Positions 55,989 to 64,000 of a stretch of DNA of 64,000 nucleotides are shown here, piece after piece; position 1 is the first letter of the stretch; each line of letters starts with the position of its first letter. The stretch is from contig JAJPWY010000033.1 of the NCBI GenBank assembly GCA_021205725.1, forward strand, positions 1 to 64,000, written 5' to 3'. A program made the translations under genes and the position numbers. This stretch comes from Clostridiales bacterium (GTDB taxonomy: Bacteria > Bacillota > Clostridia > Oscillospirales > Oscillospiraceae). The notes beneath the pieces were generated by a model. It did not search any database. It saw only the letters and a program-made list of their open reading frames with translations, and was not told where the DNA came from.

Positions 55989-56009
55989 TGCATATAAGCC
56001 CCGCCGTGG

Positions 56010-56165
56010 CCGTGTGACCCAGTTCAAACCTGCACAGAATGGCAGGTGGGACGCTTCCGCCTGGCTTTGCTGCTTCCAACTTCCGGCGCAAACAGCGCAG
56101 GGAGGCCTGCAAACCACCAGTCGAGAGGTGCATCCCGTATTTGAATTGTGGGTTTAAATATGGGC
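56010..56165 (-). ncRNA. Rod-shaped structured RNA candidate, 6S-like
   Basis: Minus strand folds by eye into one long interrupted rod: CCCA/TGGG, TTCAAA/TTTGAA, TGCAC/GTGCA, GGTGG/CCACC, internal bubble, GCCTCC/GGAAGC, CCTG/CAGG, GCTGTTT/AAGCAGC; strong terminator downstream. Confidence 0.45.
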
Positions 56166-56205
56166 CATCACGCACCGGGCAGGGCGCTGTGACGATAGAA
56201 CCGCC

Positions 56206-59394: not shown

Positions 59395-59465
59395 GTGGAC
59401 AGTCCGTTGCCCGGGGCAGGAAACTGTGATACAATGGAGAAAAATGAAGGAAGAAGGTCGCTGTT

Positions 59466-60383
59466 ATGCAAATCAGTCAGACGGCGGGACTCATCGAGGC
59501 GGCCAGCCCCAACGGGGCCCTCTCTCAGCGGCAGGCGGGCTCCATCACCATCCTCAAGCGCATCGTTCTGACCCTCCAGCAGGCGGGGGTCTTTCCCATC
59601 GTCGTCCTCACCGGGGCGGAGGAGGAGCTGGTGCGTTACCAGCTCTCGGATTACGGCGTCATCTTTCTCCACAGCGAGGCACAGGAGCCCATGGACGCCG
59701 TCCGCACCGGTCTGACCTATCTGGCGGACAAGTGCGGCCGGGTGGCCTATACCCCGGTGACTGCCCCCATGTTTGTCCCGGAGACCCTGCTCCGCCTCCG
59801 GGAGACGCCCGGAGACATCGTCACCCCAGTCTATCAGGGCAGGGGAGGCCATCCGGTGCTGCTCTCCGCCGCCGTTATCCCGGAGATTTGCGCCTGGCAG
59901 GGGGAAGGCGGACTTCGGGGGGCGCTCCGGACTATGGAGGAGCGGCGAGTCCGGGTGAATGTGGAGGATGAGGGGATTTTGGCCAGCGCCCACGATCAGG
60001 GTCAGCTGGACGCCCAGCTCTCCCGGCACAACCGGGCCATCCTCCATCCCTATATTCAGATCCGCTTCGAGCGGGAGGACCCCTTTTTCAACGACCGGCT
60101 CAAGCTGCTGCTGTTTCTCCTGTCGGACACGGAAAATCTCCGCCATGCCTGCGACCAGATGGCCCTGTCGGTGAGCAAGGCGTGGAACATGATCAACCAC
60201 CTGGAGGAGGAGCTGGGCTACCCTGTCGTAGAGCGACGGCGGGGCGGCAAGAACGGAGGACAGACGGTGCTCACGGACGCAGGGAGGGATTTTCTGCTGG
60301 CGGCCCAGCGGTACGAGGAGGCGGTAATCCGGTTTGCCCAGCAGCGGTTCCGCTCGGATTTCCTGGAGCGGGGAATGATCTGA
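59466..60383 (+). CDS. Degenerate MocA-like nucleotidyltransferase domain fused to a ModE-type winged-helix domain
   Basis: N-term resembles the MocA fold but lacks LAAGxSxRMG and PGDMP; C-term HACDQMALSVSKAWNMINHLEEELGYPVVERRRGGKNGGQTVLTDAGRDFL is ModE/LysR-like. Confidence 0.82.
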   Translation: MQISQTAGLIEAASPNGALSQRQAGSITILKRIVLTLQQAGVFPIVVLTGAEEELVRYQLSDYGVIFLHSEAQEPMDAVRTGLTYLADKCGRVAYTPVTAPMFVPETLLRLRETPGDIVTPVYQGRGGHPVLLSAAVIPEICAWQGEGGLRGALRTMEERRVRVNVEDEGILASAHDQGQLDAQLSRHNRAILHPYIQIRFEREDPFFNDRLKLLLFLLSDTENLRHACDQMALSVSKAWNMINHLEEELGYPVVERRRGGKNGGQTVLTDAGRDFLLAAQRYEEAVIRFAQQRFRSDFLERGMI

Positions 60384-60491
60384 GGAATTTTGCAGCCCAC
60401 AGACCGAATGACTTTCAGAAAGCATTTGCTATTGTGACCGGATCGGGTATAATGGAACTGTTATAATGGCGTCTTTTCAAAAAGGAGGGCG

Positions 60492-61166
60492 GTGTCTGTG
60501 TCCAGGCTGGCGGGACTGGTGACAGCGGCAGGGCAGTCCTCCCGGATGGGGGCGTTTAAGCCTCTGCTTCCCTTAGGGGAGCATACCGTCATTGAGAGAA
60601 CGGTGAGCAGCCTGCTCACCGGCGGAGCAGGGTCGGTGACAGTGGTCACCGGCTACCGGGGAGACGAGGTGGAGGCCGTCCTCTCCCGGCGCTTCGGCAG
60701 ACAGGTGAGCTTTATCCGCAACGGAGACTTCGCCTCCACCGATATGCTCCAATCTGTCCGGCTGGGCTGCGGAGCGCTGCCCTGCTGCGACGCCTTTTTC
60801 CTCCTGCCGGGGGATATGCCTGCCGTAGGGGAGGAGACCTTCCGCCTGCTGGCGGACGCCTGGAGCGAGACGCCGGACAGGGTCATCTTTCCCACCCTGA
60901 ACGGACGACGAAAGCATCCGCCTCTTATCCCGGCAGCCTTTCTCCCGGAGATTCTGTCCTTTCACGGAGAGGGCGGTCTTCGGGCGTTTTGGGGACAGCT
61001 GGGCGGGCGACTGCGCACCGTCCCGGCAGAGGATCCGGGCACCGGGCTTGACCTGGACACCCCGGAGGACTACCGAACCTGCCTGGCCCTGCTGGAGGGC
61101 CGACGGAGGCAAAAAGCATCTTCTGATACTGATTTGAAACAACATGACTGGAGGGAACCCCGATGA
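60492..61166 (+). CDS. MocA-family molybdenum cofactor nucleotidyltransferase
   Basis: AGLVTAAGQSSRMGAFKPLLPLGEHTVIERTV and LLPGDMPAVG; GTG start with AAAGGAGGG RBS. Confidence 0.88.
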   Translation: MSVSRLAGLVTAAGQSSRMGAFKPLLPLGEHTVIERTVSSLLTGGAGSVTVVTGYRGDEVEAVLSRRFGRQVSFIRNGDFASTDMLQSVRLGCGALPCCDAFFLLPGDMPAVGEETFRLLADAWSETPDRVIFPTLNGRRKHPPLIPAAFLPEILSFHGEGGLRAFWGQLGGRLRTVPAEDPGTGLDLDTPEDYRTCLALLEGRRRQKASSDTDLKQHDWREPR

Positions 61167-63286
61167 AGGAAATCAGCTGCCCGGTGGTCAAAAAGGATCA
61201 CGGGGATAAGGTGTCCGGCCGCTCCCTGTATGTGGGGGACTATGACGGTGAGGGCGTCCTCACCGGAAAGCTGCTCCATGCGAAGGTAGCCCACGCCAGG
61301 ATCGTAGAGGTATCGCTGCCGGAGCTGCCCCAGGGCTATCTGTATGTAGACCGGAACGATGTGCCGGGAGACAATAACGTCAACATCGTCAAGGACGACA
61401 CCCCGGTTTACGCCCGGGAGACGGTGGAGTACATCGGCGAGCCCATCGGCATGGTGGTGGGCCCAGACCCCAAAGAGGTGGAGCGGCTGCTCTCGGAGAT
61501 TCAGGTGACCTATGAGGAGCTGGAGCCGGTGCTGGACTTGCGCAAGGCCAGCGAGGTCTTTTTCCACTATGAGTACGGCAAGGGAGACCTGGAGGCTGCC
61601 TTTGCCCAGGCTGACAAGGTCTACGAGGAAGAGTTTGAGACGGGCTATCAGGAGCAGGCCTATCTGGAGACCCAGGGCATGATGGCTGTGCCGGAGGCGG
61701 ACGGACGGATGTTCGTCCACGGCTCCATGCAGTGCATCTACTACGTCAAGGGGGCGGTCATGCGGGCTCTGGGCTGTGGGCCGGACGGGGTGCATATCCT
61801 CCAGGACCCCACCGGCGGCGGCTTCGGCGGCAAGGAGGCGTTTCCCTCCATCCTGGCCTGTCAGGTGGCGGTGGCCGCTCACAAAGCCCAGGCCCCGGTT
61901 CGCTGCGTCTTTGACCGGCGGGAGGATTTGGAATACACCTCCAAGCGCCACCCCTCCCTGTGCGTTTATAAGGTGGCGGTCAAGGACGGCAGAGTCACCG
62001 CCATGGACATCGACGTGAAGTTCAACGGCGGGGCGTACACCACCCTGTCCGCCGTGGTGCTCCAGCGGGGACTGATCTGTGCCGACGGGGTGTACAACAT
62101 TGAAAACCTCCACGTCGTCGGCGAGGCGCTCAAGACCAACACCACCCCCACCGGGGCCTATCGGGGCTTCGGTGCGCCACAGACCTTCTTCGCCGTGGAG
62201 CTGATGATGGACCATATCGCCCGGGACCTGGGGGTGGATTCCCTGGAGTTCAAGGAGGCCCACATGGTAAAGCAGGGGGACGCCACCTCCACCTCCGGAA
62301 TGTACCATTTCCCGGTGCCCCTCCCCGCCATGATCGACGAGGTGGACCGGGCCTGCGATTTCCGCAGGAAGCATAAGGAGTACGCAAAGCCCCAGACTGG
62401 GCGGTATCGCCGGGGCATCGGCATGTCGGTCTACTTCCACGGCGCCGGCTTCACCGGGGCCGGAGAGCGGGACACCATCAAGGCGGTCTGCAAGCTCCAC
62501 AAGTACCCGGACGGCACGGTGGAGATTCTGGCCTCCAACGGCGAGATCGGCCAGGGCGTGCGAACCACCTTCCCCAAGATCGTGGCCCGGGAGCTGAATC
62601 TGCCCCTGGAGAAGGTCTACTACGACCAGCCGGACACCGCCCGGGTGCCGGACTCCGGTCCGACGGTGGCCTCCCGCTCCCTGATGATCGTGGGCGAGCT
62701 GCTCCGCCGGGCGGCCATCCAGCTCCGGGACAAATGGGTGGACGGCGAGGATCAGATGGTGGAGGAACACTATAAGGAGCCCAACTTCATGATCCCCTTC
62801 TCCCTGGAGGACTTCCATGGAGACGCCTATCCCACCTACGCCTGGGGCGTCCACGCCATCGAGGTGGAGGTGGACACCTGCACCGGCAGGAGCCAGGTGC
62901 TGGGGGCCACCGGTTCCTTCGATGTGGGCACACCCATTGACTACAATGTGGTCATGGGCCAGATGGAGGGCGGCTTCCTCCAGGGCATCGGCTACGCTTC
63001 CATGGAGCATATGAATTACGACAACAAGGGCCGTATTCGGAACAACTCCTTCTCCGACTACCTCATCCCCACCACCAGAGACGTGCCCAATCTGAACTGC
63101 ATCCTCCATGTGGAGGAGTACCCGGACGGCCCTTACGGGGCCAAGGGCGCCGGGGAGCTGCCTCTGGTGGGCGGCCCCGGGGCCTATGTGGAGGCGCTGG
63201 AGCAGGCGCTGGGCGGCGTGAAGCTGCACCACGCCCCCTTCACCATCGAGGACACCATGAACGTGATTTTGAAGGAGGGCCTGTGA
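61163..63286 (+). CDS. Xanthine dehydrogenase-family molybdopterin-binding subunit
   Basis: QDPTGGGFGGKEAFPSILACQVA, GAYRGFGAPQ, YGAKGAGELPLVGGPGAYVEAL. Confidence 0.92.
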   Translation: MKEISCPVVKKDHGDKVSGRSLYVGDYDGEGVLTGKLLHAKVAHARIVEVSLPELPQGYLYVDRNDVPGDNNVNIVKDDTPVYARETVEYIGEPIGMVVGPDPKEVERLLSEIQVTYEELEPVLDLRKASEVFFHYEYGKGDLEAAFAQADKVYEEEFETGYQEQAYLETQGMMAVPEADGRMFVHGSMQCIYYVKGAVMRALGCGPDGVHILQDPTGGGFGGKEAFPSILACQVAVAAHKAQAPVRCVFDRREDLEYTSKRHPSLCVYKVAVKDGRVTAMDIDVKFNGGAYTTLSAVVLQRGLICADGVYNIENLHVVGEALKTNTTPTGAYRGFGAPQTFFAVELMMDHIARDLGVDSLEFKEAHMVKQGDATSTSGMYHFPVPLPAMIDEVDRACDFRRKHKEYAKPQTGRYRRGIGMSVYFHGAGFTGAGERDTIKAVCKLHKYPDGTVEILASNGEIGQGVRTTFPKIVARELNLPLEKVYYDQPDTARVPDSGPTVASRSLMIVGELLRRAAIQLRDKWVDGEDQMVEEHYKEPNFMIPFSLEDFHGDAYPTYAWGVHAIEVEVDTCTGRSQVLGATGSFDVGTPIDYNVVMGQMEGGFLQGIGYASMEHMNYDNKGRIRNNSFSDYLIPTTRDVPNLNCILHVEEYPDGPYGAKGAGELPLVGGPGAYVEALEQALGGVKLHHAPFTIEDTMNVILKEGL

Positions 63287-63287
63287 G

Positions 63288-63761
63288 ATGAATGGTATCT
63301 GTTTTACGCTAAACGGCGCTCCTGTGACCTATGAGGGCAGCGCAGCGGATCGCCTGCTGGAGGTGCTGCGGGACACCTACCGCACCACCAGCGTCAAGTG
63401 CGGCTGCAAGGAAGGGGAGTGCGGGGCCTGCTCCGTGCTCCTGGACGGAGTGCTGGTGAACTCCTGCTGTGTCGCCATGGGAGCCGTAGAGGGCCGGAGC
63501 GTGGTTACGCTGGAGGGCTACCGGGAGACGGAGCGGTTCGCCGTGCTCAGCCGGGCCTACGGAGAGCTGTCCGCCGTCCAGTGCGGCTTCTGCACTCCCG
63601 GCATGATACTGGCCAGCGAGGCCCTGCTGTCCCGGAATCCCCACCCCAGCGAGGAGGAGATCCGGGAGGGGCTCTCCGGCAATCTGTGCCGCTGCACCGG
63701 ATATAACGCCATCATCAAGGCCGTCTCGCTGGCCGCAGAGGAGGGGAATGGACTATGGTAA
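63288..63761 (+). CDS. Xanthine dehydrogenase-family (2Fe-2S) subunit
   Basis: [17 protein letters not shown] and [16 protein letters not shown]…[16 protein letters not shown]. Confidence 0.95.
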
Positions 63762-64000
63762 ACGGATATACGGCCCACTCTCTGGCGGAGGCGCTGGAGA
63801 TCAGGGCGGCCCATTCGGTGATCCCCTACGCCGGGGGCACCGACCTGATGGTGGAAAATCGCCCGAACCCCACCTACCTGTTCCTGGCCCGGGTACCGGA
63901 GCTGTGCGGCATCCGTGAGGATGAGACTTACATCCGCATTGGCGCGGCGGTCACCTATACCCAGGCTCTGGAGTCCCCTCTGGTGCCGCCGCTGATGAAG
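63755..64000 (+). CDS. Xanthine dehydrogenase-family FAD-binding subunit (truncated by window end)
   Basis: [53 protein letters not shown]…; overlaps the upstream stop by 7 nt. Confidence 0.88.

Follow-up and report, generated by a model that had tools for sequence, protein, structure and literature searches.

Known systems resembling the fusion protein

ModE is the protein by which bacteria sense molybdate, and Moco is thought to be sensed by an RNA element. BirA and NadR each fuse an enzyme domain of a cofactor pathway to a DNA-binding domain. NrtR, a Nudix-related regulator of NAD synthesis, is a further example; its activity is lost in some lineages where regulation stays, and a 23-bp palindrome lies between the regulator gene and the target operon (PMC6800001). 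The operator of ModE has the consensus ATCGCTATATAN6TATATAACGAT (PMC2700814), and PucB of B. subtilis is a relative of MocA (PMC2997495), the CTP:Mo-molybdopterin cytidylyltransferase.

We analyzed a 64,000-nucleotide stretch of a Clostridiales genome (contig JAJPWY010000033.1; hereafter the window) in which one gene joins a MocA-like domain to a ModE-type winged helix. Its product has the same winged-helix type as ModE (PDB 1b9m, 1o7l, 2ijl), which also controls molybdenum-related genes, but the helix-turn-helix (HTH) is C-terminal here and N-terminal in ModE, no Pfam match to the Mop/TOBE molybdate-binding domains was found in it up to an E value of 1, and the DNA motif described below, CAARTTCTTT-N4-AAAGAAYTTG, differs from the TATATA-N6-TATATA type of the ModE operator. 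With MocA (TIGR03310) it has in common the fold, C-terminal motifs, and an operon with xanthine-oxidase-family enzymes; unlike MocA, it lacks the catalytic loop and metal motifs and carries an extra DNA-binding domain. The DVU_1551 family (NF045665) is matched only over profile positions 25–186 of 359, and the HTH falls outside that family. The likeness to NrtR, where a cofactor-pathway enzyme domain is likewise combined with a DNA-binding domain and a conserved operator near pathway genes, does not extend to homology: the enzyme domain is Nudix in one and nucleotidyltransferase in the other, and the cofactor is NAD in one and the molybdenum cofactor in the other. The window protein is neither ModE, given its other operator and its lack of Mop domains, nor MocA, given a domain that by its motifs is dead. 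No description of a MocA-ModE fusion was found in the part of the open-access literature covered by our search. It very probably evolved from MocA and regulates the transcription of a purine/Mo-hydroxylase regulon.

Domain architecture and gene neighborhood

The fusion gene occupies positions 59466..60383 of the forward strand, begins with ATG downstream of a ribosome-binding site, and encodes 305 amino acids. A sigma-A-like promoter, TTGCCC-N17-TACAAT (59407..59435, +), was read directly and by comparison of relatives, six of which keep both hexamers and their flanks. The degenerate MocA-like domain spans roughly aa 1–190 and the winged helix aa 205–290. Pfam places NTP_transf_3 (PF12804) at aa 25–157 with 60.2 bits (cut-off 27) and HTH_1 (PF00126), a LysR/ModE-type winged helix, at aa 219–274 with 31.0 bits (cut-off 26.6). 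The NCBIfam matches of both parts, to DVU_1551/MocA transferases and to the ModE repressor domain, all fall below curated cut-offs: the best match of the first domain is NF045665 (DVU_1551 family NTP transferase; 95 bits, cut-off 315), MocA TIGR03310 scores 45 bits against a cut-off of 186 that the intact neighboring MocA also misses at 135, and ModE_repress TIGR00637 at aa 218–294 reaches 48.2 bits (E 8.5e-13, cut-off 98.5). Among solved structures, the window protein matched the ModE-type HTH 2ijl (E 2e-6), and a profile of the family matched MocA/MobA-like 3d5n (6e-21) and 2we9 (2e-18) as well as ModE 1b9m (8e-17). An AlphaFold2 model of the window protein, built with five near-identical relatives, had a pLDDT of 43, too low for structural interpretation. 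The TIGR00637, PF00126, and 2ijl/1b9m matches delimit an HTH domain at aa 218–290 (60117..60335, +), so that the ModE-like C-terminus recognized in the first-pass annotation is borne out, with the likeness covering the DNA-binding domain only.

Downstream on the same strand lies mocA (60492..61166; PF12804 112.8 bits), with intact AAGQSSRMG and PGDMP motifs, and then the Mo-binding subunit of a xanthine-oxidase-family hydroxylase (XdhA/PucD-like; 61163..63286, +; PF02738, PF20256, PF01315; TIGR02965 373 bits), a 2Fe-2S subunit (63288..63761, +; PF01799, PF00111), and the start of an FAD-subunit gene (63755..64000, +) that continues beyond the window. Further along the contig, at 64621-67197, a selenium-dependent xanthine dehydrogenase is encoded (TIGR03311 1228 bits, cut-off 830). 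An Rfam scan of the window returned neither the Moco nor the Tuco riboswitch; its sole match was a 6S RNA at 55994-56188 on the reverse strand (RF00013, 75.8 bits).

Loss of catalytic motifs in a conserved domain

In alignment with other fusions and with MocA, the nucleotide loop AAGxSxRMGxxK is absent from the window protein. The adjacent mocA product reads AAGQSSRMGAFKP at this position and the fusion reads EAASPNGALSQR (59496..59531, +), 4 residues shorter than AAGxSSRMGxFKP. The metal-binding LPGDMP is replaced by TPVTAP (59751..59768, +), which removes its Asp. The first-pass annotation had read EAASPNGALSQ in place of AAGQSSRMG and PVTAP in place of PGDMP and had taken the active site to be degenerate; the alignment agrees on each point, adds the four-residue gap, and uncovers a third loss that it had missed, the DxD of 'LDLDTPED', which reads SAH in the window protein. 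The window clade has thus lost the loop, the first Asp, and the DxD motif alike, and to judge from these motifs the fused MocA domain is catalytically dead. The DxD position carries a His in all seven genomes of the clade with the common loop deletion (SAH, SVH, TVH, TIH, SIH; in the window at 59991-59993, aa 176), and this conserved residue may mark a new position for a ligand or metal. In MocA/MobA proteins it is the C-terminal half that faces the pterin, and the window clade retains the MocA-fold motifs of that half, GHP, GexGLrgA, and EDEGI.

Strong purifying selection acts on the dead domain. Across the window gene and five relatives (~93% identical), mean dN/dS was 0.08 for the dead domain, 0.037 for the HTH, and 0.23 for the intact neighboring MocA gene, which rules out a decaying pseudogene. 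Since near relatives have the same motif changes fixed and dN/dS in the domain is 0.08, these losses are more than chance.

Distribution and evolution of the fusion family

Full-length fusions were found in 47 genomes of Bacillota, near-identical metagenome-assembled genomes (MAGs) not included, among approximately 1,500 genomes searched; a search of plasmids found no full-length relative. They are of two kinds, those that keep the loop (AAGMSSRMGxFKP, with PVDIP or PxDVP) and those that have lost it, and in the loop-lost fusions of the window's clade the Asp is mostly lost as well. When the loop and Asp columns were left out of the alignment, the resulting tree had the loop-dead forms branching from within the loop-intact ones; it requires 4 changes, of which well-supported branches force at least 3, so the sequences indicate that the catalytic loop was lost at least 3 to 4 times. 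One loss is apparently recent, G1144 being dead and its sister G1288 intact. Because many relatives retain the catalytic loop, the family probably descends from a bifunctional protein that was both a MocA and a DNA binder.

The loop-intact fusions may still be MocA enzymes; one of them (L106) scores 199 bits against NF045665. A separate MocA, scored as a TIGR03310 match above 100 bits at another place in the genome, is present in 24/26 genomes with loop-dead fusions compared with 3/18 genomes with intact ones, a difference whose Fisher value of 4e-7 overstates the case since the species are related. Confined to supported branches, the contrast comes down to three independent pairs, a mean of 2.6 of which go in the expected direction and 0 in the opposite one (sign test p 0.25). 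The exceptions among dead fusions are G204, where no separate MocA was found, and G1244, where two fragments may be one MocA split between contigs; draft assemblies make up many of the genomes compared. This distribution suggests that intact fusions serve as the cell's MocA, and that fusions gave up catalysis where a separate MocA does the work.

Loop-intact fusions have XdhC and other maturation genes among their neighbors, and some dead ones have xdhC, MoCF, and moaA genes. The first-pass annotation had tied the gene to molybdenum enzymes, and our neighborhood survey upholds this association, with Mo enzymes found beside fusions in other genomes. Two dead fusions (G1024 and G1112) share a locus type of their own, and the genes scanned in G1024 had no clear link to Mo, the neighbors of its fusion (L115) being a symporter, a serine dehydratase-like protein, and DUF2229. 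We also noted two loci with an unfused version of the pair, in which a MocA-like gene adjoins a separate ModE-type gene encoding the HTH only (L122 8027-9000 and L123 8222-9219). A fusion with the loop LASGKGTRFGGGKL (L250 8386-9393, G1228) is only weakly similar to the others and is perhaps an independent fusion. Taken together, the fusions form a real and coherent regulator family.

A conserved dyad at the downstream promoter

In every locus of the window clade, a 24-bp dyad close to CAARTTCTTT-N4-AAAGAAYTTG follows the fusion gene and precedes the operon downstream of it, at the promoter that drives mocA and/or the Mo hydroxylase genes. This dyad is newly recognized here. Scored with a symmetric motif from which the locus's own group was left out, it was the best match of the whole 15–21 kb locus in 14/14 window-clade loci, which represent eight independent groups, the window and three MAG relatives being counted as one case. 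The 24-bp motif did not find the 23-bp version of the dyad in L110. In the window the predicted operator, CGAATGACTTTCAGAAAGCATTTG (60405..60428, +), is a diverged copy in a block conserved in 5 relatives; at 16 bits, 14/24 palindromic, and with its left arm shifted by one base, it is among the weaker copies and is still the top motif match of its 19-kb locus. Other predicted sites of the family read CAAGTTCTTTTnnnAAAGAATTTG and CAAGTTCTTTTCACAAAGAATTTG. The motif considered first, a CTTTCnGAAAG core noticed in the window, proved confined to near relatives and was given up for the wider dyad. In L003 and L004, a near-identical insert of ~240 bp lies between the fusion stop and the mocA promoter block and is absent from the window, L006, and L007; it looks like a small repeat element.

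The dyad sits in a fixed relation to the promoter. In the window, the −10 element TATAAT (60448..60453, +) follows 19 bp past the dyad, and in 14 promoters the gap from dyad end to TATAAT/TACAAT is 19–21 bp; from this spacing, the final TTG of the dyad forms the −35 element, and the window operator overlaps the −35 region of the mocA promoter. The first-pass annotation had named the regions upstream of 59466 and 60492 as places to check for DNA binding. A search upstream of 59466, the start of the fusion gene, found no dyad, whereas the region before mocA contains the predicted operator.

When 1.6 Mb were scanned, nearly all high matches adjoined fusions. The motif trained on the window clade also reached beyond it: among 37 other fusion loci, 9 had their best match no more than 200 bp from the fusion, where 1.26 were expected (P 4e-6). 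In four loop-intact fusions (L106, L237, L238, and L239), a related dyad of equal length lies directly upstream of the fusion's own gene.

Two candidate targets lie in trans. In G324, a second dyad (L109 1618-1641) precedes the xanthine permease gene pbuX (TIGR03173 455 bits, over the cut-off), which is the first hint of a regulon extending past the operon. In a whole-genome pattern search, perfect dyad matches, among the matches listed, occurred only beside fusions; the background, genomes without a fusion, held among the matches listed only dyads with one or two mismatches, and is an incomplete control. Of the two best matches away from the fusion in G361, one is located 80 bp upstream of a further Mo hydroxylase of the window type, with the same kind of gap to TATAAT (20 bp) as at other promoters. 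A third dyad in G361, with one mismatch, falls inside a fabG-like open reading frame and was taken as chance. With the dyad at the promoter of every window-clade locus and these two targets, the earlier proposal that the protein regulates the adjacent Mo-hydroxylase genes gains support.

Proposed mechanism and alternative explanations

We propose that the family began as a working MocA with a C-terminal ModE-type winged helix. In the window lineage, where the next gene supplies a separate MocA, the fused domain would have lost its loop and metal ligands and kept its regulatory role. From the placement of the motif we infer that the fusion protein, presumably dimeric, binds the 24-bp dyad over the −35 of the mocA/Mo-hydroxylase promoter, and that in relatives it would also bind the promoters of the xanthine permease and the second Mo hydroxylase. 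The dead domain would most likely sense cofactor, either Mo-molybdopterin (Mo-MPT) or MCD, and purine hydroxylases would then be made only with cofactor available. This ligand is favored because intact relatives are MocA-like and lie with XdhC and maturation genes, some dead ones lying with xdhC, MoCF, and moaA; a nucleotide, the other ligand suggested in the first-pass annotation, is disfavored because the nucleotide loop is lost while motifs of the C-terminal half are kept. As the operator sits over the −35 beside a consensus −10, we lean towards repression relieved by cofactor, and class II activation is possible. The account as a whole, of a regulator derived from a bifunctional MocA and a winged helix that binds the dyad and likely senses cofactor through its dead domain, is in our estimation reasonably probable.

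Its main rival keeps the regulator and changes the ligand. The dead domain might bind a purine such as xanthine or uric acid, or a nucleotide, and the switch would then answer to substrate. The predicted targets fit such a reading, being a selenium-dependent xanthine dehydrogenase, Mo hydroxylases of the purine type, and a xanthine permease that in one relative has a dyad to itself, and the MocA fold is a nucleotide-binding fold. We consider it unlikely nonetheless: the part that was lost is the nucleotide loop, cofactor is the natural signal for intact ancestors that are MocA-like and adjoin XdhC and maturation genes, and other dead fusions lie beside moaA, MoCF, and xdhC genes. Rather improbable, in turn, is a dead domain that acts as a protein-interaction module, pairing with active MocA, XdhC, or apo-hydroxylase and reporting their state to the promoter. 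It would explain why the dead form nearly always has a separate MocA for company and why the domain is strongly conserved despite lost catalysis, but a related dyad is also present at the promoter of the loop-intact fusions, which lack a partner MocA, and so regulation needs no partner.

In the window clade no dyad precedes the fusion gene, which could also mean that the dyad belongs to another regulator and that the fusion is merely adjacent. Such a regulator would have to account for a related dyad of the same 24-bp geometry at fusions in other clades, where it precedes the fusion gene in the loop-intact forms, and for perfect matches that, among the matches listed, are all at fusions with none in control genomes; we regard it as very unlikely. 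Least credible of all is a window protein that is still an enzyme, with a different specificity and with DNA binding secondary. Purifying selection on the domain would suit it, but the loop, first Asp, and DxD motif are gone throughout the window clade and a conserved DNA site adjoins the gene.

Implications for molybdenum sensing

If the account centered on a cofactor ligand is true, the protein would close a gap in bacterial molybdenum sensing by reading the cofactor itself. What would be new is a protein transcription factor that senses finished cofactor (Mo-molybdopterin or MCD), not molybdate, by means of a dead MCD-making enzyme, together with living relatives that form a series of bifunctional, still intact enzyme-regulators, and with several conversions of enzyme to sensor that arose independently; we put this forward tentatively, at somewhat less than even confidence. 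The family also offers a natural experiment in the passage from enzyme to regulator, since it includes intact bifunctional forms, several lineages that lost catalysis separately, and a DNA site to match, and it provides a switch, open to testing, for the selenium-dependent breakdown of purines by gut Clostridia.
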